From: Prevotella sp.
GTDB taxonomy: Bacteria; Bacteroidota; Bacteroidia; Bacteroidales; Bacteroidaceae
Length of the DNA: 64,000 nt
Assembly (NCBI GenBank): GCA_017478025.1
Contig: JAFVGZ010000003.1
Span: forward strand, 186,001 to 250,000
Reading direction: 5' to 3'
Shown: in pieces, positions 551 to 45,514 of the stretch
How positions within the stretch are numbered: position 1 is the first letter of the stretch
Layout: the number at the start of each line of letters is the position of its first letter
Made by a program: the position numbers and the translations under genes
The notes under the pieces: generated by a model
What the model was told of the DNA's origin: nothing
Databases searched by the model: none
Seen by the model: the letters and a program-made list of their open reading frames with translations, nothing else

Positions 551-1711
551 TTAACAAATCTTTTTTGAACCGTCTCCTATCTTCACATCATACACCTTAG
601 GTGCATGGCCGTATTTCTCGGCAAAGTCTTTCTTTGCCGTAGCAATGAAGTCATCATACAGTTCGTTCTTCACCAGGTTGATTGTGCAGCCACCGAAGCC
701 GCCTCCCATGATACGGGAACCGGTAACGCCGCATTTCTTTGCTATCTCCACAAGGAAATCCAGTTCTTCGCAGCTCACCTCATATTCCTCAGACAGACCA
801 CGGTGTGTCTTATACATCAGTTCACCTACCTTCTCGTAGTCTCCTGCCTGCAGAGCATCACAGACACCAAGGACACGGTCTTTCTCGCCCAATACAAACG
901 TGGCTCTTTGCTTATCCTCGGCAGAGACAGTATCGGCAACCTCTTCAAGGTTCTCCCAGGTACAGTCTCGCAGGGTTTCAAACTTCCCCTCTGGGTGCTT
1001 CTCCTGAACAGCCTTTACCACACGCTCGCATGAGTTACGACGGTCATTATATGGGCTGCCTGCCAACTCATGCTTTACACAGGAGTTGAGGAGGACAAGC
1101 CTATAGCCTTCGGGATTGAAGGGGAAGTATTCAAACTCACGGCTGTTGCAGTCAAGACGCATCAACGAGCCCTCCTTGCCGAACACAGAAGCGAACTGAT
1201 CCATGATACCGCAATTCGTTCCGATATATTTATGCTCAGTTGCCTGACCAGCGAGTACTATGTCCCACTTGGATATTTTATTATCTGCAAAGAGGTCGTT
1301 CAGAGCACATCCGAAACAACTCTCCATAGCAGCACTTGATGACATGCCTGCACCCAGAGGAACGTCTCCGGCAAAAGCGATATTGAAACCCTTCACATCG
1401 ACTCCGAGAATCTGAAATTCCTTCACCATGCCGAAAATGAAGCGCGCCCATGTAGCACGTGGACCTTGCTCATCATTGATATCAAAATCCACACGATCCT
1501 TCAGGTCTATAGAATAAGCCCTGACCATATTGGAACCATTGGGGCGGACCTCAGCCATTACGCCGCAATCCACAGCACCTGGGAATACATAGCCGCCGTT
1601 ATAGTCTGTGTGCTCACCAATCAGGTTTATACGTCCAGGAGAGAAGTATATGTTTCCTGTTTCGCCATCAAAATGCTTAATAAATCTGCTTCTTACAAAT
1701 TCAATGTCCAT
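551..1711 (-). CDS. galK: galactokinase
   Basis: A 386-residue GHMP kinase that phosphorylates galactose to galactose 1-phosphate at the entry of the Leloir pathway in the cytoplasm. Visible motifs are the galactokinase signature GRINLIGEHTDYNGG near residue 27, the phosphate-binding loop PLGAGMSSSAAMES near residue 115, and the C-terminal GHMP motif GSRIMGGGFGGC near residue 330. Length is normal. No other gal genes are next to it; recR lies 29 bases upstream and xseB follows after a hairpin, so it sits in a housekeeping run rather than a gal operon. Confidence 0.95.
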   Translation of the reverse strand: MDIEFVRSRFIKHFDGETGNIYFSPGRINLIGEHTDYNGGYVFPGAVDCGVMAEVRPNGSNMVRAYSIDLKDRVDFDINDEQGPRATWARFIFGMVKEFQILGVDVKGFNIAFAGDVPLGAGMSSSAAMESCFGCALNDLFADNKISKWDIVLAGQATEHKYIGTNCGIMDQFASVFGKEGSLMRLDCNSREFEYFPFNPEGYRLVLLNSCVKHELAGSPYNDRRNSCERVVKAVQEKHPEGKFETLRDCTWENLEEVADTVSAEDKQRATFVLGEKDRVLGVCDALQAGDYEKVGELMYKTHRGLSEEYEVSCEELDFLVEIAKKCGVTGSRIMGGGFGGCTINLVKNELYDDFIATAKKDFAEKYGHAPKVYDVKIGDGSKKIC

Positions 1712-1740
1712 AGTCGTAGAATGTTTAGTTTTGTTATTAT

Positions 1741-2361
1741 TTAGTTGTTTATTTTTGTTCTGTTGAGTATGCTTCGTCCTAATGTCACTTCATCGGTGTA
1801 TTGTAATTCATCTCCCACACTGATACCACGTGCTATCACCGAGAGGGTCAGATTTTGAATGCCCTGTAGCTGGCGCGTGATATAGAAGTTTGTCGTGTCC
1901 CCCTCCATTGTAGAAGCCAATGCGAAGATGACCTCACGTATAGGTGCGGAATCCTCTTTTTCATGACTCTCTTTCACCCGTTCCACCAGCGACGTTATCT
2001 CAAGGTCTTTGGGGCCTATACCATCCATTGGAGAAATGATACCGCCAAGTACGTGATACAGTCCATTGTACTGCTGCGTGTGTTCTATAGCCAACACATC
2101 TTGTATATTCTCAACAACACACACTAACCCCTCGTCACGAGACTTGTCACCGCATATCGAACACACCTCCGTATCACTGATATTGTGACACACGTGGCAG
2201 TATTTCACTTCGCGCTTGAGGGTTGTCAGAGCATCGGCAAAGGCAATGACATCCTCATCGTCCTGCCTGAGCATGTGAAGCACCAACCTCAGGGCGGTCT
2301 TTTTGCCTATCCCTGGCAGACGAGCAAATTGTGATACGGCGTTGTCAAGTAGTATAGCCAT
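1741..2361 (-). CDS. recR: recombination mediator protein RecR
   Basis: A 206-residue RecR, which works with RecO and RecF to load RecA on gapped single-stranded DNA. It has the helix-hairpin-helix [12 protein letters not shown] at residues 15-26, a four-cysteine zinc finger (CHVCHN and CSIC, about residues 55-70), a Toprim region starting at [14 protein letters not shown], and the C-terminal [20 protein letters not shown]. Start ATG at 2361; the frame stays open a little upstream but has no better start. It is slightly shorter at the N-terminus than some homologues. Confidence 0.93.
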
Positions 2362-2382
2362 ATGGCGAAGTGACGAATTAAA

Positions 2383-2471
2383 GCCCCACCCCTGCCCTCC
2401 ACTTTGGGAGGGAGAAGGGGATAGAGGGACGAATTAACAAATTAACAAATTAACGAATTATGCATTATGCA
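2383..2471. repeat. Composite intergenic repeat between recR and the glycosidase gene
   Basis: The 110-base gap holds a C-rich then G-rich stretch (2383-2429, CCTCCACTTTGGGAGG core), then tandem GAATTAACAAATTAAC units (2430-2460), then ATGCATTATGCATT (2460-2473), which runs into the stop codon of the glycosidase gene. The same components recur elsewhere in the window (11814-11870, 25391-25520, 31755-31790). Confidence 0.7.
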
Positions 2472-4727
2472 TTACTGCATTTTATTAAGTCCTTCCCACT
2501 TCACGTTCCATTTGCCATTCTGTGGGAATCCAGGATTTTTGATATTGGGGCATCCATCCCATCCTGCACACATCATTGCTACAGCGTCAAGGAGGGCACT
2601 GTTACCGGGCAGGTAGAGGCGCAGACGCTTGGGTTCCTGATAATTGTGACCAGATACGAGATACGTATTCTTTCCCTTGTCAATCAGCAATGCCCTTATA
2701 GCATTCTCTCCATCTCCAAGTCGGGCAGCACACATGGCGGTCATTCCGTAGTCCCAGCCCCATGTGGTATCCCAATTCCAATTCTCCATCACCCATGACA
2801 ATGTGCGTTGCATCTCTGCACGATCATATAGGCCATAGTCAGGCAGCAAGCCACAGGCACCGAGTACGGCAGGATGGTCAGAGCGGCACTTCAGGTAGAA
2901 CTCCTCCTCGGTCAGTTGTTTCTTTCCTGTATCACCGCCATAGTTGAAGGGGTCAAACGCTGTTGTAGTGCCGTCACTCTTGTCTGCAAATGGTTGTGTA
3001 GGTATTCCTGCGGTATAAATCCCGTCATGTTCGGGCAGTCCTGCCATTCTTCCAATGATGGTTTGCCATTCCTCTACTGCCGGCAGTCCTCTCCTCTCAC
3101 GCCATTTCAGCGCTGTCTTAAGTCCATAGACAAAGTATGCCTGCTCAAAGGGATGACCGTACGAGAAATCTTTTGACATCGACTCCTGCATAGCTGTCTG
3201 ACCGTACAGGCGAATATCCTTCCCCTGTGTCTGTGAGTTCTCCTGCGGTCCGCATGACAACGCAAAGGCTGCCAAGAACTCTGCGGTCTCATCTACATAC
3301 TGTCCGTATTTTTCCAATACCGCCTTCTGCTTCGCTTTGTCATCCCCGGCACGGCGATACATCTCCTCTGCCATATATATATAATGTGGCTGCTGCCAAG
3401 TCAGGAACGAACCAACATTAGAGGGTGACTCTCCCACCCACGGGTCTGTCATCTTCATCCAACGTATGCCAGGGAAATGCTGACGTGAGGCAATCTGCTT
3501 TGCCAGAGGATAAGCCTTGTCATTGTACCACCCCAAGATGCGCTCCATATACTCCGGATGTCCCCATAGCGAGAAATCTACGGTATGCCACCATGTCATC
3601 TCAAGGTGTGGACGTCCGAACCATGAGTTGTATGTCAATCCCGTCTCCTGAGGTGGGGTATCGTTAGCACAGTTGATAAAAGTGAGATACTGTGACTGTA
3701 CCACGCGGCGCTCCAGCTCCTTAGCACGACTATCTGTACACTCCGAGAAATCTACAATTCCACCTTTCTGCCACCACTCATTCCAAAAGCGACGCACACT
3801 GACAATCTCTTTCTTAAAGTCAAACGATGTCTGTAGCTCACTCTTCTCGGCTGCATATTCAACCTTAAGCTTTATATTCTCACCCTTAGGCTGCAACACG
3901 TAGCGATGAGCTGCGGGATTGCTGAACGTAGCATTGCCGCTCCATGTCAGGCGTACATAGTATTTCGTTGCATCTATCGTATGTTCTATTATTGCATACG
4001 TTCCCTTCTGTTCTATCACCGCAGAGCGATGTGCATCCTCATTTCCCCAGTCAGTAGCTGCATCAGCATGCTTTCCTGTAACGTATGGCAGAGAGAAGCA
4101 AATGGCTGCTTCTTGGCGTTTGAAAAGTTTCGTGTTAACATCCACTATCAGTGCCGAGCTTTCCGGCAACGCTGCAGTAGTTACCGTGAAAGCCTCGCCA
4201 TTCACGCTGAAGCATGACACGATGTTACCGTCATACATATTCAGTGTCTGGTCAATGTCTCTCACATCGCTCAAGGTTATGCCCTCGTTCTTTGGGAAGC
4301 AGAAACCGACATTACCCAAATTCAAACGATGTGGATTGACTCTGAAGTATTCCGTAGCCTCCTTGTTTCTCCCTTCTGTCTTATACTCCACGGCATATAC
4401 CTCCTGTCTGCCTCCGTGGCCCAGGTTCATCACCTTCATTGTCTCCTCTTCCTTGAGATTCTTCACGTTTGGGAAACTGTGCCATCCCCACTCGGACATA
4501 GCACACAACGGAACACCGGCTTCATATTCCTTAGGAAAAGTCTGCAGTCCTGTGACATCTACAGTAGTAGCAAAATGTCCGTTACCCACAGTCAAAGAAC
4601 TGAGGGCATCTGCCTTTTTCACCACGGGGTTGTTCCTCATCACGACTTTATGTCTGTCAATCCCCTCGGCTCCAGCCACGCAGACACCGCAAAACAGGAT
4701 TGTTATGGTTAGCAGTAGATTTTTCAT
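2472..4727 (-). CDS. secreted (alpha/alpha)6-barrel glycoside hydrolase, family not certain
   Basis: A 751-residue exported protein with signal peptide MKNLLLTITILFCGVCVAGA. The N-terminal half (about 25-300) looks like an all-beta domain. The C-terminal half is rich in aromatic/acidic helical motifs of six-hairpin glycosidases (WFGRPHLEMTWWHTVDFSLW, about 370-390; QPHYIYMAEEMYRR; WVMENWNWDTTWGWDYG, about 665). HLEM..W and the late WDTTWGWD are likely active-site walls. The layout fits GH65/GH95-like clans, but I cannot fix the family or substrate. No SusC/SusD or regulator is adjacent, so it is not in a recognisable polysaccharide utilisation locus. Confidence 0.6.
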   Translation of the reverse strand: MKNLLLTITILFCGVCVAGAEGIDRHKVVMRNNPVVKKADALSSLTVGNGHFATTVDVTGLQTFPKEYEAGVPLCAMSEWGWHSFPNVKNLKEEETMKVMNLGHGGRQEVYAVEYKTEGRNKEATEYFRVNPHRLNLGNVGFCFPKNEGITLSDVRDIDQTLNMYDGNIVSCFSVNGEAFTVTTAALPESSALIVDVNTKLFKRQEAAICFSLPYVTGKHADAATDWGNEDAHRSAVIEQKGTYAIIEHTIDATKYYVRLTWSGNATFSNPAAHRYVLQPKGENIKLKVEYAAEKSELQTSFDFKKEIVSVRRFWNEWWQKGGIVDFSECTDSRAKELERRVVQSQYLTFINCANDTPPQETGLTYNSWFGRPHLEMTWWHTVDFSLWGHPEYMERILGWYNDKAYPLAKQIASRQHFPGIRWMKMTDPWVGESPSNVGSFLTWQQPHYIYMAEEMYRRAGDDKAKQKAVLEKYGQYVDETAEFLAAFALSCGPQENSQTQGKDIRLYGQTAMQESMSKDFSYGHPFEQAYFVYGLKTALKWRERRGLPAVEEWQTIIGRMAGLPEHDGIYTAGIPTQPFADKSDGTTTAFDPFNYGGDTGKKQLTEEEFYLKCRSDHPAVLGACGLLPDYGLYDRAEMQRTLSWVMENWNWDTTWGWDYGMTAMCAARLGDGENAIRALLIDKGKNTYLVSGHNYQEPKRLRLYLPGNSALLDAVAMMCAGWDGCPNIKNPGFPQNGKWNVKWEGLNKMQ

Positions 4728-22915: not shown

Positions 22916-22938
22916 CAGCGATTTTATGATTACAAGTG

Positions 22939-24072
22939 ATGAGTGTTGATATACGACAAGCCAATGACCGCAAGACAATGAATGATTTCATTGCCTTTCC
23001 CCGTGCGCTCTACAAGGGTTCTAAGGAGTATATCCCGGACCTGGACAGCGACGTGAGGAACTTCTTTGACCCAAAGAAGAATGACAGTTTGCGATATGCA
23101 CGCATTCAGCCGTTTGTGGCTTACCGCGACGGTGTCTGCGTGGGACGCGTGGCAGCGCTCATCAGCAATCGAGCAAATACGAAGTGGAACCGCAAGTCGG
23201 TACGCTTTACCTACTTGGACTTCATCGATGACTACGAGGTGTCATCAGAACTGCTGGAGGCGGTAGAGCGCTGGGGAAAGAAACAGGGCATGAAGGTCTG
23301 CGAGGGTCCGCTGGGCATCACCGACTTTGACAAGGAGGGAATGCTGATAGAGGATTTCCACCTGGGCGGCGGCACGATGGAGTTCTGGAACTATCCGTAC
23401 TACGTGGAGCACATGCGCAGAGCCGGCTATGACAAGGCTGTCGATTGGCTGCAGGTACGCGTGAAGGTGCCTCAGGAGGTGCCGGCAAAGTATGCACGTG
23501 TGGCAGCACTGTCGAAGGAGATGTTCGGGCTGCGCGTGGTGAAGGCCACAAAGAAGATGATATTGAAGGAAGGATGGGGACAGAGGCTCTTCAAACTCTT
23601 CAATGAGGCATTCGCACCGCTCTATGGCACGTCAGTATTCAGCAATGACCAGGTTGACAATTACATGAAGCAATATGTTCCGCTGCTGGACCTGGAGCTC
23701 GTGCCGTTCATTCTGAATGATAAGGATGAGATAGTAGGCGCCGCAGTAACGGTACGCGATCTGTCACCGGCACTCAATAAGACGCACGGACAGCTGCTGC
23801 CACTGGGATGGTATCACCTGGCGAAGGCGCTGATTATGAAGAAGGCCGAGAAGGCACAGCTGATGCTCATCGCCGTAAGACCCGATATGCAGGGATTAGG
23901 ACTGAACGCACTGATTTTCGATGACCTGATACCGATATACAACAGAATCGGCATAAAATGGTGCGAGACGAACCCGCAGCTGGAGTCAAACGTAAAGGAG
24001 CTGTCACAGTGGAAGCCGCTGAACCCCGAAATGGTGAAGAGACGCAGATGCTGGCAGAAGGAGATGAAGTGA
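22939..24072 (+). CDS. long GNAT-fold acyltransferase
   Basis: A 377-residue protein from ATG 22939 (a GTG stands directly before it). The C-terminal GNAT part contains LMLIAVRPDMQGLGLNALIFD (about residues 307-327), the acyl-CoA-binding motif (Q/R-x-x-G-x-G type). The N-terminal half (FPRALYKGSKEYIPDLD) is typical of a Bacteroidetes subgroup without a fixed function. Position before a ketosynthase, an acyl carrier protein and hotdog dehydratases suggests that it acylates a lipid or amino group using a carrier-bound chain; this is inference. GNAT-type ceramide synthases are one analogy. Confidence 0.75.
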   Translation: MSVDIRQANDRKTMNDFIAFPRALYKGSKEYIPDLDSDVRNFFDPKKNDSLRYARIQPFVAYRDGVCVGRVAALISNRANTKWNRKSVRFTYLDFIDDYEVSSELLEAVERWGKKQGMKVCEGPLGITDFDKEGMLIEDFHLGGGTMEFWNYPYYVEHMRRAGYDKAVDWLQVRVKVPQEVPAKYARVAALSKEMFGLRVVKATKKMILKEGWGQRLFKLFNEAFAPLYGTSVFSNDQVDNYMKQYVPLLDLELVPFILNDKDEIVGAAVTVRDLSPALNKTHGQLLPLGWYHLAKALIMKKAEKAQLMLIAVRPDMQGLGLNALIFDDLIPIYNRIGIKWCETNPQLESNVKELSQWKPLNPEMVKRRRCWQKEMK

Positions 24073-24080
24073 GGACGGGA

Positions 24081-24160
24081 CCACGAATTTCACGAATTTC
24101 ACGAAAATTGTACATGACAAAATAAAAATTGTACATTGTACATGGTAAATTGTACATGTC
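24081..24160. repeat. CACGAATTT and TTGTACATT repeat tract
   Basis: Three CACGAATTT-like units (24082-24105) are followed by ATTGTACATG/ATTGTACATTGTACATGG units (24107-24160). The tract fills most of the gap to the ketosynthase gene and ends 17 bases before its ATG. Confidence 0.75.
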
Positions 24161-24176
24161 ATAACGTTATAGAATA

Positions 24177-25394
24177 ATGAACAGAGTAGTAATTACGGGC
24201 ATGGGTATATGGTCATGCCTGGGACAGACACTTGACGAAGTATGTAAGTCGCTCTTCGATGGACGTAGCGGCATTGTTTTCTCACAGGAGCGTAAGGACT
24301 TAGGCTTCCGCTCGGCATTGTGTGCCAACGTGCCAAAGCCAGACCTGAAGCCGTTCGTGCCACGCAATATGCGACAGTTTATGCCGGAGGAGGCACAGTA
24401 TGCCTACATGGCTACTAAGGACGCACTCGCAGCAGCAAAGATAGACCAGGATTTTCTGGACACCCACGAGGTGGGCATCATCTATGGCAATGACTCCGTT
24501 GCCGAGGCTACGATGCGCGCACTCGATAAGTTCCGTGAGTTTAAGGACACCGCAGCATGCGGTTCAGGAGCCATCTTCCAGTCCATGAACTCTACCATCA
24601 CGATGAACCTCGCATGCCTCTTCAAGCTGCGCGGCATCAACCTGACATCGTCGGCAGCCTGCGCCTCCAGTTCGCTGGCAATAGGCAATGCCTACCTGCT
24701 GATAAAGAACGGTCTGCAGGACTGCATCATCGCCGGCGGCGGTCAGGAGGCCAATATGTATAGCATAGCATCCTTTGACGGCATCCAGGCATTCTCAACG
24801 CGTGAGGATGAGCCAACGAAGGCAAGCCGTCCGTTCGACAAGAACCGTGACGGTCTGGTGCCTGGCGGCGGTGCTGCAACGGTAATTCTGGAGAGCTATG
24901 AGCACGCCGTGAAGCGCGGTGCACCGATACTGGCAGAGGTGATAGGATGGGGCTTCTCTGGCAACGGAGACCATATCTCTACACCAAACGTGGCAGGTCC
25001 TGCACGCTCGCTGGAGCTGGCCATCAAGAATGCCGGAGTGGATGTTAGGGAGATAGGATATATCAACGCTCACGCCACCTCTACACACGCCGGAGACGGA
25101 CGCGAGGCAATGGCAATAGCACAGATATTCGGTGACTATAAGGTGCCAGTGACATCTACAAAGTCACAGACAGGCCATGAGATGTGGGCTGCTGGAGCAG
25201 CAGAGTGTATCTACTCTATGCTGATGATGAAAAACGGCTTCATCGCCGGCAACATCAACTTTGAGGAGCCAGACGAGGAGACGTCCTGCATCAATATCAT
25301 ACCGGAGACAAAACAGGCACATTTCGATATGTTCCTGTCTAACTCATTCGGTTTCGGCGGCACGAACTCTACGCTGATAATCAAGAACCTGTAA
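24177..25394 (+). CDS. beta-ketoacyl-ACP synthase (FabF-like ketosynthase)
   Basis: A 405-residue condensing enzyme. It starts MNRVVITGMGIWSCLG. The Cys-His-His catalytic set is complete: Cys162 in SSAACASSS, His299 in YINAHATSTHAGD and His334 in KSQTGHEMWAAG. It would extend an ACP-bound acyl chain with malonyl-ACP by Claisen condensation. It is not obviously the housekeeping FabF, because it heads a run with its own ACP, two hotdog proteins and an exporter, as in type II polyketide, aryl polyene and flexirubin loci. No chain-length factor partner is present in the window. Confidence 0.9.
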   Translation: MNRVVITGMGIWSCLGQTLDEVCKSLFDGRSGIVFSQERKDLGFRSALCANVPKPDLKPFVPRNMRQFMPEEAQYAYMATKDALAAAKIDQDFLDTHEVGIIYGNDSVAEATMRALDKFREFKDTAACGSGAIFQSMNSTITMNLACLFKLRGINLTSSAACASSSLAIGNAYLLIKNGLQDCIIAGGGQEANMYSIASFDGIQAFSTREDEPTKASRPFDKNRDGLVPGGGAATVILESYEHAVKRGAPILAEVIGWGFSGNGDHISTPNVAGPARSLELAIKNAGVDVREIGYINAHATSTHAGDGREAMAIAQIFGDYKVPVTSTKSQTGHEMWAAGAAECIYSMLMMKNGFIAGNINFEEPDEETSCINIIPETKQAHFDMFLSNSFGFGGTNSTLIIKNL

Positions 25395-25557: not shown

Positions 25558-25800
25558 ATGACAAGAGAAGACATTATCGCAAAGGTAAATTCAGTATTGG
25601 CAGAGGAGTTTGAGGTTGAGGAGAGCTCAATCACTCCAGATGCGAACATCAAGAACACTTTGGCTCTGGACTCACTGTCACTGGTTGACCTGGTGGCCCT
25701 CATCCAGTACACCTACAAGGTGAAGATTCCTGCAGAGGATCTGCCAAAGATTCAGACGTTCAACGACCTCTACGATTACATCGAGTCTCACGCTGCATAA
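25558..25800 (+). CDS. acyl carrier protein
   Basis: An 80-residue acidic four-helix carrier. The phosphopantetheine attachment serine is Ser39 in LALDSLSLVDLV. It carries the growing acyl chain between the neighbouring ketosynthase and hotdog enzymes. It differs from a typical housekeeping AcpP (DSLD motif) in the residues around the serine, and it lies 4 bases before the next gene, so it is likely dedicated to this pathway. Confidence 0.93.
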   Translation: MTREDIIAKVNSVLAEEFEVEESSITPDANIKNTLALDSLSLVDLVALIQYTYKVKIPAEDLPKIQTFNDLYDYIESHAA

Positions 25801-25804
25801 GGTG

Positions 25805-26218
25805 ATGACAATATATGAATTGATACCCCAGCGTCCACCCATCGTAATGGTGGATGAGCTGACGCATGCTGACGGCGACGAGGCAACATGTGTGCTGACG
25901 GTAAGCCCCGACAACTTCTTCATCGGCGATGATGATCGCATGGAGGAGGTGGGACTTATTGAGCACATTGCCCAGTCGGCGTCAGCCTTTGCAGGATACA
26001 AGGCCATAGCAGAGGGTGCTACCGAACCTCCTGTGGGATATATCGGAGAGGTGAAGAATTTCCACCTTTTACATCGTCCACACGTAGGAGAACAACTGGT
26101 GACGACAATCACTATGGGTGCAACCGTCAGCGGCGTGACAATCATACAGGGCGAGACAAAGACCAGCGATGGGACACCCTGCGCCGACACGACGATGAAG
26201 ATATTCATCAGAGAGTAA
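25805..26218 (+). CDS. ApeP-like hotdog protein (3-hydroxyacyl-ACP dehydratase family)
   Basis: A 137-residue single hotdog domain from ATG 25805 (GTG at 25802 is possible). It aligns with FabZ from LIPQRPPIVMVDEL. The GHFPG block that carries the catalytic His is replaced by IGDDDRMEEV, while the catalytic acid is kept as Glu53 in GLIEHIAQSASAF. This pattern is that of ApeP-type dehydratase subunits in aryl polyene clusters. On its own it would lack the His. It starts 4 bases after the ACP stop and is followed, after a repeat, by a second hotdog protein with the opposite loss. Confidence 0.78.
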   Translation: MTIYELIPQRPPIVMVDELTHADGDEATCVLTVSPDNFFIGDDDRMEEVGLIEHIAQSASAFAGYKAIAEGATEPPVGYIGEVKNFHLLHRPHVGEQLVTTITMGATVSGVTIIQGETKTSDGTPCADTTMKIFIRE

Positions 26219-26220
26219 AA

Positions 26221-26427
26221 GCCCCCCACCGGCTCCCCCCAAGGGGGGAGGGACGGAAACGGTGTGAAATTGACGAATCCTATTTCTATCCCTGCATTAT
26301 AACGCACCTTTTCAAGGAGCTATGAATACTCCACGGGGTTACGTCAGCGTAACAGAGGGCCGAACGACACATTAAATTGTACATTGTAAATGGTAAATTG
26401 TACATAACAATGGTAAATTGTACATAA
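26221..26427. repeat. Composite intergenic repeat: GC palindrome, REP-like hairpin and TTGTACATT tract
   Basis: A perfect hairpin CTCCCCCC-AA-GGGGGGAG (26233-26250) follows the hotdog gene. Further on lie a REP-like copy with GTTACG-TCAG-CGTAAC (26338-26353) plus GGGCCGAACGAC, and then AAATTGTACATTGTAAATGG units (26374-26427), which end 4 bases before the next start codon. Confidence 0.8.
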
Positions 26428-26431
26428 ACTG

Positions 26432-26797
26432 ATGTTTTTAGAGAACAGATTTTATAAGATTACAAAAGAGGAACGCGCGGAGAATGAGGCACTTTTCACA
26501 GTGAGCATTCTCCCGGATTGCAATGTGTATGATGGGCATTTCCCTGGCAACCCTGTATGCCCGGGAGTGTGTAACATACAAACCATAAAGGAGTGCGCTG
26601 AGAGACTTGTGGGCCAACCACTTACGATAACGACCATAAAGCAATGCCGACTGACCGCCGTAGCGACACCACAGGTGTGTCCGGAGGTGACAGTAACGGT
26701 AAACGCAACAGAGAACGAGGGAGGATACCTCATCACTGCTATTATCAGCGATGAGAAACAAGGATACATGAGCCTTAAGGCCATAATGAAGAATTAA
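26432..26797 (+). CDS. FabA/FabZ-like hotdog protein with catalytic His but no Glu
   Basis: A 121-residue single hotdog domain. The FabZ catalytic block is present as DGHFPGNPVCPGV with His36. At the position of the FabZ glutamate, 14 residues later, there is Gln50 (NIQTIKECAERL). It would therefore be incomplete as a homodimer but could pair with the ApeP-like protein encoded upstream, which keeps the acid and lacks the His. ApeI-like proteins occupy this place in aryl polyene loci. Reaction inferred: dehydration of 3-hydroxyacyl-ACP. The exporter gene starts 5 bases later. Confidence 0.78.
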   Translation: MFLENRFYKITKEERAENEALFTVSILPDCNVYDGHFPGNPVCPGVCNIQTIKECAERLVGQPLTITTIKQCRLTAVATPQVCPEVTVTVNATENEGGYLITAIISDEKQGYMSLKAIMKN

Positions 26798-26802
26798 GAA
26801 AG

Positions 26803-29346
26803 TTGACTCAGTTATTCATTAACATATACCACTATTTCAGACACCATCGTGCAGCAATGTGGCTCTCGATGGTTGTTCTCTTTATTGTATCGGGATACTT
26901 CGCTTCGCAGATTCACCTGGAGGAGGATCTGAATAAGCTTATGCCATCGTCAAAGAATCCTGACGGTACGACAAAACTGGCCTTCGCCGACCTGCGTATC
27001 AAGGATAAGACCTACCTGCTCTTTGAGAGCAAGTCAACGAAGGCGACTCCCGAAGTACTGGCAAAAGTATGCGACGAGTTTGTAGATTCGCTGATGGCAC
27101 GCGATGGTGCCCGCGACTCTTCGGCTCGCGTGGTGGGCGACGTGTTCTACAGCCTGCCCGAGGAGCTGGCCTTAGACGGCATCTCGTTCCTCACGGAGCA
27201 TATCCCGTCATATATCGACACCACAGCATACGCCGCATTTGACACCCTCCTGGTGCCTGAGAGGATAAAGAAGCAGATGGAACAGAATGCTGCCGACTAT
27301 GCCTCTGCCACAGAGGGCGGCGACGAGGAGACGGCAGGGATGATGACATCGCTGCTTGCCCTCGACCCCATAGGAATGAGAGGAGTGCTGACAAAGCAGT
27401 TTGCCCCCCTCGTAAACGCTACGGGAGGAAGCTACAAAACCATTGACGGACATTTCTTCGTGCCCGACAGCACGGTGTGCGTGGCATTCATTTCACCCAG
27501 CTTCTCAGCGACGAACACAGGTCAGGGCTCAAAGCTCTTTGAGGATCTCAACGAACTGACAGAGACATTCCTCAAGGCACACCCCGAGGTGAAGGTGAGC
27601 TATTACGGTACGCCGGCAAGCGGATACTACAACTCATCGACCATCAAGGGCGACCTCACCACAACCATCGCCGGTTCGCTCATTATTGTGCTGCTCGTCA
27701 TCTGTCTGTGCATGCGCAACTGGTCCACCATCCCACTGCTCATAATTCCCGTAGCCTTCGGCACGCTCTTCGGACTGGCTCTGATGTATTTCATCAAGGG
27801 ACAGTTCTCACTCCTCGCATTGGGTATAGGAGCCATCGTCTTAGGTGTCGCCATGAGCTATGTGCTGCACATCATAACACACTACAAATACACCGCTGAC
27901 GGAGAAAAGGTGCTGAGGGATGAGACCGTGCCCGTATTGTTAGGATGCATCACCACCGTCGGCTCGTTCATGGGACTGATATTCATCAAGACCGACCTGC
28001 TACAGGACTTCGGACTCTTCGCCGCCTTCGCTATCGTGGGCACTACGGTATTTGCGCTGATATACCTGCCGCACCTGCTGCCTATGGAAGAGAACAAGGT
28101 CAACAAGAAGGCCTTCGCGCTGATAGACAAGGTGAACAACTACCCCTTTGAGAACAAACGCCCATTGCTGCTCGGCATCACCGCTATGGTAGTGGTGGCA
28201 ATAGGATTCTATGTTGTGAAGGGTACGGACTTTGATGCCGACATGAGCAACCTGGGATACCTGGCAGACAATACGGAGTATGCCGAGAAACTCCTTCGCG
28301 ACAAAACCTATACTGAGGACAAATCGAAATACTTTGCTTCTGAAGGCAAGAGCATGGAGGAAGCGCTGGAGAACTTCTCGCTATTGGAGAAGAAGCTGGA
28401 CTCGCTGCAGCAACTTGGGCTGGTGAAGGACTACACTCACACAAACGCCATCTTCGTACCATTGAAGGAGCAGCAGAAGCGCATCGATGCGTGGAAGGCC
28501 TTCTGGACTCCAGAGAGAATAGCACAGGCACGACGCCTTGTGGCAGCATACGCCCCCCAAGCGTTCAGCAATGTGGAGACAGAAGAGGGAAAGCTGAACG
28601 CCATGGAGTTCTATGAGCCATTCTTTGAGATGATAGAGGCAGACTACTCTCCCACCCCACTCTATGAGGAGGGGCTGATACCACCGGGTTATCAATCTAC
28701 GCTGATGGAACAGACAATGGCAGGCAACTGGCTCTGCTTCACCTCCGTGAGATGTGCCAACGACTCCATCAGAGGCGAGGACACTGACTATAACCGCATC
28801 TGCGATGCTATAGCCAACGAGCCAAACATGCTGGTGCTCGACACATATTACTACACCTCTGACGGACTGAAGGAACTGAACAGCGACTTCAACATACTGC
28901 AGTGGGTCAGCATGCTCTTCGTATTCATAGTGCTGCTGCTGTCGTTCCATTTCAACCTGCGCTACACGCTGCTGGGCTTTGCGCCCATACTGCTGTCGTG
29001 GCTCGTGGTACTCGGGGCAATGGCGATATTCAACGTGAGGTTTAACCTCATCAACATCATCATCTCCACATTCATCTTCGGTATCGGTGTAGATTACTCC
29101 ATCTTTGTGATGAACGGCCTCATAAACGGCAAGAAAGAGGATAGTGACGGGGCGTCACTGCTGGCGTACCATAAGACAGCAATCTTCTTCTCGGCCTTCA
29201 TACTGATAGTTACCGTAGCCTCAATGCTGGCAGCACGCCACCCGGCGATACAGTCCGTAGGCTTCGCCACCCTTGTGGGCATGATTTCAACAGTGGTACT
29301 GTCATATGTCATGCAGCCGGCAATCTTCAAGCGCTTAAAGAAATGA
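26803..29346 (+). CDS. MMPL/RND-family lipid exporter
   Basis: A large inner-membrane transporter (847 residues from TTG 26803). It has two repeated halves, each with one membrane segment, a periplasmic loop (about 45-260 and 460-690) and a bundle of membrane segments. The second half contains FIFGIGVDYSIFVMNG, the MMPL relay motif. Such proteins export lipids or polyenes. The TTG start, 5 bases after the hotdog stop, gives the basic leader MTQLFINIYHYFRHHRAAMW, as expected for this family; the next in-frame ATG (26857) would begin inside the first membrane segment. It overlaps the MscS gene by 4 bases. Confidence 0.88.
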   Translation: MTQLFINIYHYFRHHRAAMWLSMVVLFIVSGYFASQIHLEEDLNKLMPSSKNPDGTTKLAFADLRIKDKTYLLFESKSTKATPEVLAKVCDEFVDSLMARDGARDSSARVVGDVFYSLPEELALDGISFLTEHIPSYIDTTAYAAFDTLLVPERIKKQMEQNAADYASATEGGDEETAGMMTSLLALDPIGMRGVLTKQFAPLVNATGGSYKTIDGHFFVPDSTVCVAFISPSFSATNTGQGSKLFEDLNELTETFLKAHPEVKVSYYGTPASGYYNSSTIKGDLTTTIAGSLIIVLLVICLCMRNWSTIPLLIIPVAFGTLFGLALMYFIKGQFSLLALGIGAIVLGVAMSYVLHIITHYKYTADGEKVLRDETVPVLLGCITTVGSFMGLIFIKTDLLQDFGLFAAFAIVGTTVFALIYLPHLLPMEENKVNKKAFALIDKVNNYPFENKRPLLLGITAMVVVAIGFYVVKGTDFDADMSNLGYLADNTEYAEKLLRDKTYTEDKSKYFASEGKSMEEALENFSLLEKKLDSLQQLGLVKDYTHTNAIFVPLKEQQKRIDAWKAFWTPERIAQARRLVAAYAPQAFSNVETEEGKLNAMEFYEPFFEMIEADYSPTPLYEEGLIPPGYQSTLMEQTMAGNWLCFTSVRCANDSIRGEDTDYNRICDAIANEPNMLVLDTYYYTSDGLKELNSDFNILQWVSMLFVFIVLLLSFHFNLRYTLLGFAPILLSWLVVLGAMAIFNVRFNLINIIISTFIFGIGVDYSIFVMNGLINGKKEDSDGASLLAYHKTAIFFSAFILIVTVASMLAARHPAIQSVGFATLVGMISTVVLSYVMQPAIFKRLKK

Positions 29347-33064: not shown

Positions 33065-33193
33065 AGCCCCCAAAGCCCCCCACCAACTCCCCCCCCCCCT
33101 AAAGGAGGGAGGGACGTAAATAACAATATAACAATATAACAAAATAAAAATTGTACATTGTACATTGTAAATGGTAAATGGTAAATAGTACAT
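33065..33193. repeat. Composite repeat: poly-C palindrome, AACAATATAAC units and TTGTACATT tract
   Basis: The order is AAGCCCCC units, an 11-base C run with CTAAAGGAGGGAGGG (33081-33115), AACAATATAAC repeats (33121-33140), then ATTGTACATTGTACATTG and GTAAATGGTAAATGG (33148-33193). The last part encodes the first six residues of the sigma factor. The same composite precedes the PqqD gene (35486-35580) and, inverted, recQ's 3' side (45371-45514). Confidence 0.85.
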
Positions 33194-33702
33194 CATATAA
33201 TCAGCTTGTCTTAGACAATATGGGCTTCGTCGTAAGCCTTGCCGAGGAATATCATAATAAGCACCGCCAGGTGGATTTGGATGACCTGGTGAGCGAAGGT
33301 TCTCTTGCAATGCTGCGCGCAGCACGTAAATGGGATCCGGAACGCGGGGTGCGTTTCGTCAACTATGCCGTGCGTGACATACGAAAGGCAATGGAACGAC
33401 TGCTGCCCGAAGAGGTGATAACGACAGAGGCGCTGCCAGAAAAACTGAAGGCAGGCAAGCCACACACCGATGATGCTGCAGAACAGGGCGACATGGAGGC
33501 ATCCATCTTTCCTGCTTTGGGATTTCTCAATGAGAGGGAACAGTTTGTCATTGAGTCATATTACGGACTGAACGTGGATGACCGAATGACAATGGCAGAG
33601 ATAGCACAAGAGATGCAAGTGACACGCTCAAGAGTAAGACAGATACTCAAAACGGCGCAGAGGAAGATGAGACGCATACTGAACCATAACGTATTCATAT
33701 AA
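33178..33702 (+). CDS. small sigma-70-family RNA polymerase sigma factor
   Basis: A 174-residue sigma factor with region 2 (LVLDNMGFVVSLAEEYHNKH, DLVSEGSLAMLRAARKWDPERGVRFVNYAV) and region 4 (LNEREQFVIESYYGL to EMQVTRSRVRQILKTAQRKMRR). Region 3 is nearly absent, as in short alternative sigma factors. The first residues (MVNSTS) are encoded by a dispersed repeat, so the start is uncertain; Met15 is an alternative. No anti-sigma gene is adjacent. It precedes the exported-protein/kinase/peptidase/PqqD run and might control it, which is inference. Confidence 0.85.
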   Translation: MVNSTSYNQLVLDNMGFVVSLAEEYHNKHRQVDLDDLVSEGSLAMLRAARKWDPERGVRFVNYAVRDIRKAMERLLPEEVITTEALPEKLKAGKPHTDDAAEQGDMEASIFPALGFLNEREQFVIESYYGLNVDDRMTMAEIAQEMQVTRSRVRQILKTAQRKMRRILNHNVFI

Positions 33703-35485: not shown

Positions 35486-35580
35486 GCCCACTACTGCCCC
35501 CTTGGGAGAGAGACATAAATGACAAGATAACAATATAACAAAATATAAATCGTACATTGTACATTGTAAATAGTACATAA
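35486..35580. repeat. Composite repeat upstream of the PqqD gene
   Basis: CCCCCTTGGGAGAGAG, then GATAACAATATAACAAAAT, then CGTACATTGTACATTGTAAA up to one base before the first ATG. It is a near copy of 33090-33193. Confidence 0.85.
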
Positions 35581-35581
35581 C

Positions 35582-35854
35582 ATGATGCAAATAAAACAAG
35601 GCTTCAAACTCAAGGAAGTGTGCGGTGAACGCATACTTGTACCAATGGGAGAAAACAATGTGGATTTCTCTAAACTCATAGCCCTCAATGACTCTTCATA
35701 CCTACTGTGGAGACGCATGGAGAAAGGTCCGTTCACCACTGAGGAACTCGTCAATATACTATGCGAAGAATATGACGTGACCCCCGACGTGGCAGTGAAG
35801 GACGTGGAAAACCTCATCAAGCAATACCGCTCAGAGGGCGTCATCACAGACTGA
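35582..35854 (+). CDS. PqqD-family peptide chaperone (RRE-like)
   Basis: A 90-residue winged-helix protein of the PqqD fold: FKLKEVCGERILVPMG, then DFSKLIALNDSSYLLWRRM, and the C-terminal helix DVAVKDVENLIKQYRSEGVI. PqqD-like domains bind leader peptides and deliver them to modification enzymes. With the kinase-like and peptidase-like genes just upstream it suggests a small peptide-maturation set, but no radical SAM, cyclase or clear precursor gene is in the window. Met2 is an equally good start. Confidence 0.85.
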   Translation: MMQIKQGFKLKEVCGERILVPMGENNVDFSKLIALNDSSYLLWRRMEKGPFTTEELVNILCEEYDVTPDVAVKDVENLIKQYRSEGVITD

Positions 35855-44853: not shown

Positions 44854-45372
44854 ATGAAACGAGTAAGATGTCCGAAATGTGATAATTTCATCACGTTTGA
44901 TGAAACGAGATATGAGGCTGGACAGACATTGGTTTTCTCCTGCCCACAATGTAACAAGGACTTTTCCATACGCATGGGCGTATCGAAACTACGCAAGCAA
45001 CAGAAGGATGAAAATCCCACGGTAGAGTCGGAAGATGCCGGCGTAGGGGCTATTGTGGTGATAGAGAACATGTTTCACTACAAGCAGGTCTATCCCCTGC
45101 GTATGGGTGACAACGTGATAGGTCGCTATATGAAAGGCTCAAAATGTAACACTCCGATAGAGACCAATGACCCATCGATGGACATGAACCATTGCGTCAT
45201 CAACGTTTCACGCGACAAACGGGGAAACCTGAAGTACGTGCTGCGTGACGGGCCGAGCTATACAGGCACCTTTGTGGATAATCAGATATTGGGGGACAAT
45301 GAACGTCGCGTAATAGAAGACGGTACACTTTTCACCATTGGCGCCACAAGCATCATTCTTAAGGTAAAATAA
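44854..45372 (+). CDS. FHA-domain protein with N-terminal zinc ribbon
   Basis: 172 residues. An N-terminal zinc ribbon (CPKCDN and CPQCNKD, residues 6-31) of MJ0042 type is followed by a linker and an FHA domain (about 72-172: MGDNVIGRYMKGSKC, PSMDMNHCVINV, SYTGTFVDNQILG). FHA domains bind phosphothreonine peptides. The conserved SxxH region is varied (SMDMNH), so phosphopeptide binding is not assured. No Ser/Thr kinase gene is nearby. Confidence 0.85.
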   Translation: MKRVRCPKCDNFITFDETRYEAGQTLVFSCPQCNKDFSIRMGVSKLRKQQKDENPTVESEDAGVGAIVVIENMFHYKQVYPLRMGDNVIGRYMKGSKCNTPIETNDPSMDMNHCVINVSRDKRGNLKYVLRDGPSYTGTFVDNQILGDNERRVIEDGTLFTIGATSIILKVK

Positions 45373-45514
45373 TGTACAATTTACCATGTACAATGTACAA
45401 ATTTTATTTTGCCATTTCACTATTTTGCTTTTCCCCGTTTTCCCATTATCGACTCTCCCTCCTATAGGGGGGGAGTTGGAGGGAGGCCTCCTATAGAGGG
45501 GAGGTGGAGGGGGG
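45371..45514. repeat. Inverted composite repeat between the FHA gene and recQ
   Basis: ATGTACAATTTACC/ATGTACAATGTACAAA (45371-45400), an A/T stretch, then CTCCCTCCTATAGGGGGGGAG (45453-45473) and CCTCCTATAGAGGGGAGG (45487-45504). It is the mirror image of the composites at 33065 and 35486, oriented towards the minus-strand gene. Confidence 0.8.

Follow-up and report, generated by a model that had tools for sequence, protein, structure and literature searches.

The dehydratase FabZ is a homodimer with two active sites. For a second dehydratase, ApeI:ApeP, we take PDB entry 6qsr, by its title, to be the structure, and a JACS paper of 2019 is said to deal with the Xenorhabdus enzymes. In PMC10054515, EcFabZ is described as pairing His54 of one chain with Glu68 of the other chain (the acid is written once as Glu63). 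The HadAB enzyme of mycobacteria is likewise a hotdog dehydratase made of two different chains; according to PMC4491049, HadB supplies the two catalytic residues, while substrate binding falls to HadA. The closest described system is that of ApeI and ApeP, which belong to the synthesis of aryl polyene pigments in bacteria; the proteobacterial pair is presented in PMC8041823 as a heterodimer that has only one active site, and the two are listed in PMC8253772 as seemingly duplicated functions.

The window analyzed here is a stretch of 64,000 nucleotides of Prevotella sp. DNA (genome G000, contig C1, 186001-250000), within which an earlier note had singled out two adjacent genes for hotdog proteins, here denoted P1 and P2, and had proposed that they keep complementary halves of a FabZ active site. 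The order of genes on the + strand is GNAT, ketosynthase, acyl carrier protein (ACP), P1, P2 and MMPL exporter, and the exporter is followed by a mechanosensitive channel gene and a phospholipase D-like gene. The features that matter for the argument are the following:

22936..24072, + strand: GNAT-type acyltransferase (Pfam Acetyltransf_1, 22.2 bits, cut-off 20.7)
24177..25394, + strand: ketosynthase of the FabB/FabF type (motifs SAACASSS, AHATSTHAGDG and TKSQTGHEMWAAGA)
25558..25800, + strand: acyl carrier protein (PF00550, 43.4 bits; LDSLS motif)
25802..26218 (from GTG) or 25805..26218 (from ATG), + strand: P1, ApeP-like hotdog protein (PF22817, 16.5 bits, cut-off 27)
25961..25963, + strand: codon GAG of P1 Glu53, proposed acid of the composite site
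26219..26431, + strand: gap of 213 nt between P1 and P2, filled in part by interspersed repeats
26432..26797, + strand: P2, ApeI-like hotdog protein (PF22818, 26.1 bits, cut-off 28.5; best PDB match 6qsr_A)
26537..26539, + strand: codon CAT of P2 His36, proposed general base
26579..26581, + strand: codon CAA of P2 Gln50, at the position of the FabZ Glu, variable among relatives
26591..26593, + strand: codon of P2 Glu54 (+18), a near-invariant acid
26803..29346, + strand: MMPL/RND-type exporter (PF03176; found in 45 of the best 80 of 384 named loci)

The Cys motif and the two His motifs of the ketosynthase, to which catalytic roles are presumably to be assigned, are intact, and the Ser of the LDSLS motif in the ACP would be the residue of phosphopantetheine attachment. 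P1 can start at the ATG at 25805, as the earlier note had it, or at the in-frame GTG at 25802. An AT-rich interspersed repeat resembling AAATTGTACATTGTA is found at positions 24104-24161, 26373-26429, 33140-33204, 35532-35596 and 45372-45426 of the window and occupies several intergenic gaps, one being that between P1 and P2, while a short repeat, C-rich and then G-rich, lies at 26218-26259 and again at 33072-33120.

What had been read in the two proteins proved exact to the residue: P1 lacks the GHFPG His and carries Glu53 in GLIEHIAQ (numbered from the ATG; codon starting at 25961), and P2 presents His36 in GHFPGNP, followed at a distance of exactly 14 residues by Gln50 (codons starting at 26537 and 26579). 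The statement that FabZ has Glu at this +14 position is borne out by the LpxC-FabZ of the same genome, in which His and Glu stand 14 apart in one chain (GHFPEEPVMPGVLMIEAMSQ), and the description of the FabZ site as shared between chains agrees with the His54/Glu68 dyad of EcFabZ, to which each chain contributes one residue (PMC10054515). Neither window protein has the two catalytic residues, His and Glu, together as FabZ does. As each of the neighboring genes encodes a half-site, the functional enzyme is probably a pair of the two different chains. We infer that P1 and P2 would pair as a hotdog heterodimer with a FabZ-like geometry, which would dehydrate 3-hydroxyacyl-ACP for the adjoining ketosynthase and ACP. 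Following the logic of FabZ, where each site draws its His from one chain and its acid from the other, P2 His36 and P1 Glu53 would form the single working site, and the second site, made of P1 without His and of P2 Gln50, would be dead. Such a heterodimeric dehydratase, with one composite working site and one dead site, is, judging from the comparisons of sequences described below, very likely to be what the two genes encode.

Three partly overlapping sets of loci were compared. The family set comprised 88 loci (40 + L112 + 47) plus the window and yielded 78 P2 rows and 81 P1 rows, one of the latter being too short to judge, so that 80 were scored. The second set drew 20 loci, selected for a short distance between the P1 and P2 genes, from 12 other families of the order, and two Pseudoalteromonas rows were excluded from its counts. 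The third was made of the best 80 of 384 named loci, covered with up to 6 kb per side, some of them clipped by contig ends. The Glu of P1 was invariant in all three (80/80 in the family set, 20/20 in the 12 other families and 80/80 among the best 80 of 384 named loci), and none of the 180 P1 rows of these overlapping sets showed a His 14 residues before it. Ahead of this Glu, the loop falls short of that of FabZ by 3 to 5 residues, the number varying with the alignment used; the profile alignment of P1 with FabZ skips exactly five FabZ residues, GHFPK. Some His was present within 18 residues upstream of the Glu in 17/80 rows of the family set, and inside the aligned loop in 11/80, nine of which read DGH or NGH, with the His 8 residues before the Glu; the P1 of genome G203 reads GHF at this loop His, and 6qsr_B carries the same DGH at the same distance. 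This loop His was considered as a general substitute in P1 and rejected, because it is neither conserved nor at the spacing of FabZ.

The two genes also travel together. P1 relatives were found in 72 of 251 genomes of the family, and a profile search detected P2 (at least 66 bits) in 69 of these 72 and in none of the 8 tested among the 179 genomes lacking P1, where the only matches were FabZ-like, of 27.6-32.4 bits, in frames of 463-513 aa. Across 393 Bacteroidales genomes, 108 had both genes, 6 only P1, 2 only P2 and 277 neither; the 108 compare with 31.9 expected by chance (Fisher p 1.5e-86, a value to be read knowing that related genomes are not independent). Partner co-occurrence is therefore what would be expected of ApeP and ApeI members. 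Among the best 80 of 384 named loci, P2 was the next labeled gene after P1 in 78, and in the remaining two the contig ends right after P1; the distance between the matched ends was -11 to 120 nt in 77 of these 78 and 361 nt in one, the P1 and P2 ORFs of the window being separated by 213 nt. Three of the 72 genomes (G084, G222 and G106, the last 72% complete) have P1 and not P2, and their P1 likewise has no His. In two of them P2 is missing from the operon itself, as P1 overlaps the MMPL gene in G084 and directly adjoins the FAD oxidoreductase gene in G222. No stop-to-stop piece matching both profiles, as a natural P1-P2 fusion would, was found in the three locus sets. The two clusters in which P1 is kept without P2 and meets the next gene directly are L061 (9863-12702) and L059 (7936-9770). 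At 1229-2515 (- strand) of L075 the P1 domain is the C-terminal end of a 428-aa protein whose N-terminal part resembles, by eye, a lysophospholipid acyltransferase, with a ketoreductase-like gene adjoining.

In P2 the His was invariant as well (78/78 in the family set, 20/20 in the 12 other families, 78/78 among the best 80 of 384 named loci), which is the GHF His expected of ApeI. The +14 position was found to drift: Q56 E12 G3 A3 K2 T1 Y1 in the family set (n = 78), Q12 E7 L1 in the 20 loci of 12 other families, and E51 Q23 G3 V1 in the best 80 of 384 named loci (n = 78). Its state changed at least 24 times on a FastTree tree of 177 P2 rows (166 of them different) built with the +14 column omitted, many forks of which are unresolved. 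Hence, the window P2 shares Gln50 with many of its relatives, but the residue is not universal among them. The invariance of the P1 Glu and of the P2 His, next to a P2 +14 that flips, shows that the constraint on each chain covers just one half of the site.

These counts bear on the earlier claim of complementary halves, which has to be given an asymmetric form. Its P1 part stands, as the GHFPG His is absent in every row, whereas P2-type chains often keep an acid: Glu at +14 in 51/78 rows (best 80 of 384 named loci), Asp in ApeI, and Glu54. Strict complementarity was thus rejected, because +14 is Glu in many relatives, and a P2 with such a Glu could be complete alone. As to another His in P1 and another acid in P2, for which the earlier note had asked alignments to be inspected, no P1 His stands at -14 in the 180 rows, and P2 does have a nearly fixed acid, Glu54, four residues beyond Gln50. 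At this +18 position the counts were E71 D3 S2 R1 Q1 in the family set (n = 78), E75 D2 Q1 in the best 80 of 384 named loci (n = 78) and E19 K1 in the 20 loci of 12 other families.

The near-fixed acid opens another way of building a site, in which P2 would form a homodimer with His36 and the partner's Glu54 (or Glu50 where present) as the dyad, and P1 would be separate or accessory. The 71 Glu and 3 Asp of 78, and the 75 and 2 of 78 in the best 80 of 384, speak for it, as does the comparison of E(+14)..Q(+18) in FabZ with Q(+14)..E(+18) in the window P2, which looks like a swap across one helical turn. However, a P2 homodimer leaves both the invariant Glu of P1 and the tight co-occurrence of the genes unexplained, and the +18 residue is His in 6qsr_A (by count) and Lys in the ApeI of Pseudoalteromonas, whose two rows otherwise show the P1-type Glu, the P2-type His and Asp at +14. 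This arrangement is therefore considered improbable, and the P1:P2 heterodimer is preferred.

The relation of the two families to known structures points in the same direction. PDB 6qsr contains one chain per family, 6qsr_A resembling P2 and 6qsr_B resembling P1; 6qsr_A has the motif GHFPVQPLLPGVAQID and 6qsr_B has AIEMMAQ and no GHFPG, so that the known pair shows the same division of labor, with an Asp left in ApeI. In the comparison with ApeI, ApeP and FabZ suggested in the earlier note, 6qsr_B has the Glu without GHFPG, as P1 does, and 6qsr_A matches P2. P1 shares with 6qsr_B the Glu in an ExxAQ helix without the GHFPG His that is proper to ApeP, and the top PDB match of the P2 profile is 6qsr_A (E 4.8e-10), although the Asp that 6qsr_A has at +14 is replaced in the window P2 by Gln50. 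The matches of P1 lean towards FabZ: the window protein by itself matched FabZ-like chains only (6/6), and for the P1 profile the best PDB matches were FabZ structures (8.5e-11), with 6qsr_B 15th of 22 (2.2e-7). For the ApeP of an annotated Pseudoalteromonas cluster (PF22817, 68.1 bits), 6qsr_B was the sole PDB match (5.5e-16).

A scan of the window P1 and P2 against Pfam and NCBIfam found no family above its cut-off, both proteins scoring below the ApeP, ApeI and FabA thresholds of Pfam. P1 gave 16.5 bits against ApeP PF22817 (E 0.0064; 15.6 bits in the search of its own genome), P2 gave 26.1 bits against ApeI PF22818 (E 1.1e-5), and the best FabZ scores were 25.8 bits for P1 and 21.2 for P2, with cut-offs of 113 and 155. 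In the four Bacteroidota relatives scanned, P1 was under every cut-off; the PF22818 cut-off was reached by one P2 (L062, 28.6), and the FabA-like cut-off of 23 bits was passed by those of L064 (32), L062 (25.7) and L037 (24.2) and missed by that of L070 (15.9). Judged by score, the pair formally falls outside both Pfam families. Because of these scores, a Pfam-based annotation would leave the window P1 and P2 without a name.

The same comparisons help to weigh a HadAB-like reading, in which catalysis would reside in P2 and P1 would only bind the acyl chain. It has a precedent in HadAB itself, with a catalytic HadB and a substrate-binding HadA (PMC4491049), but it sits badly with a P1 Glu that is invariant at the catalytic position and with two families that match FabZ, ApeI and ApeP structures; moreover, the hydratase-2 motif (Asp and His in one chain, as quoted for HadAB) is absent from both P1 and P2. 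We regard this reading as quite improbable, somewhat more so than the P2 homodimer.

In the surroundings of the best 80 of 384 named loci, where neighbor families were identified by Pfam on one representative each (the LolA-like family by eye, having no Pfam hit), ketosynthase and ACP were seen in 79/80, the GNAT gene, which opens the compact cluster in relatives, in 72, a FAD oxidoreductase in 64, a thioesterase in 49, a ketoreductase in 45, a DUF5686 protein in 35 and the LolA-like protein in 24. A compact cluster of ketosynthase, ACP, P1 and P2, often with FAD oxidoreductase, thioesterase, ketoreductase and MMPL exporter, thus recurs in the 80 named loci. The closest named P1 relative among these best 80 of 384 is that of the Prevotellaceae MAG UBA2718 (93% identity), and two loci (L181 and L183) have the same layout as the window. 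In the genome of the window (G000), it is contig C13 that carries the FAD oxidoreductase and LolA-like genes (L079, 9768-11914), which relatives have within the compact cluster. That neither protein dehydrates, both being non-catalytic hotdog remnants or thioester-binding proteins, as might be supposed from their scores under the Pfam cut-offs and from this split of the cluster over two contigs, is very unlikely when exactly the two catalytic residues are invariant and the genes are kept with ketosynthase and ACP in 79/80 of the best 80 of 384 named loci.

With regard to the product, none of the best 80 of 384 named loci contained an aromatic lyase in the roughly 6 kb covered, and an aromatic ammonia-lyase search of the window's genome, 84.68% complete, gave no match (PF00221, E 0.01); the aromatic amino acid lyase by which an aryl polyene pathway is recognized was thus seen neither in the cluster nor in the genome. 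The aromatic-lyase gene cluster c22 occurred in 5 of 40 stretches from genomes of the family, Pfam having been applied to one of them (L062), and compact and larger clusters coexist in G182, G118 and G038. Given the surveyed surroundings and the absent lyase, the compact cluster probably makes an unsaturated acyl chain that starts from something other than a lyase-derived aromatic acid. As an aside, in the E. coli CFT073 locus (L077, 1095000-1130000) agp and efeU are flagged as frameshifted by RefSeq.

Taken together, the heterodimer gains from what is directly observed, since the residues are invariant, the genes are paired and co-occur, and both families match the chains of 6qsr. Counted against it are the P1-only and P2-only genomes, the Glu at +14, Glu54 and the loop His of P1, as well as the FabZ-leaning PDB matches of P1, the Pfam scores below cut-off and the description of ApeI and ApeP as seemingly duplicated (PMC8253772). 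On balance, a heterodimer with one complete site, as the earlier note had it, is the best explanation and enjoys strong comparative support; only the symmetric wording was too strong. Likewise, the precedent it had seen in ApeI/ApeP exists in print as a one-site heterodimer (PMC8041823), and is tempered by the wording of PMC8253772. The comparative evidence further indicates that a FabZ site split across two genes is stable and widespread in Bacteroidales and not the quirk of one locus, and it provides small natural pairs for tests of obligate heterodimers, including that of a named isolate, Segatella baroniae B14 (L201). A bolder idea, rather unlikely in our judgment, is that the Bacteroidales dehydratases with a split site form a branch of their own, in which the "dead" half has taken on a second function, its site being modified through Glu54. 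If this were true, the second site might act as an isomerase or a substrate gate, or Glu54 might provide the acid for a homodimer of P2, and the modified site would serve compact, one-ketosynthase pathways making a non-aryl unsaturated lipid.

Set beside the known systems, the pair shares with FabZ and LpxC-FabZ the profile match, the His-acid spacing of 14 and, as proposed, a site built from two chains, but each FabZ chain has both residues whereas P1 and P2 have one each. With the mycobacterial HadAB it would share the nature of a one-site heterodimeric hotdog dehydratase; the difference is that HadB has both residues and the hydratase-2 motif, and P1 and P2 would give one residue each. Larger clusters of the flexirubin/aryl polyene type in genomes of this family contain P1 and P2 relatives too, with three ketosynthase-like hits, ACPs and often MMPL, in contrast with the compact cluster, which has one ketosynthase (as in the window) and, in the best 80 of 384 named loci, no lyase hit within roughly 6 kb. 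Among the papers listed by our literature searches, none dealt with a pair of the P1/P2 type in Bacteroidota. The nearest likeness is to ApeI:ApeP (6qsr; Acinetobacter ApeH-I/ApeP), which also has two hotdog-type chains, with the His in ApeI and the Glu in ApeP. However, ApeI keeps an Asp at +14 where the window P2 has Gln, neither window protein reaches its Pfam cut-off (ApeP or ApeI), and the two genes are adjacent here, whereas some 9 kb separates them in the cluster of Pseudoalteromonas. As far as sequences can tell, P1 and P2 are therefore best described as a divergent version, present in many Bacteroidales, of the known ApeI:ApeP-like pair: the split site itself was already known, and what is new is the compact cluster, the drifting acid and the fixed Glu54 of P2.
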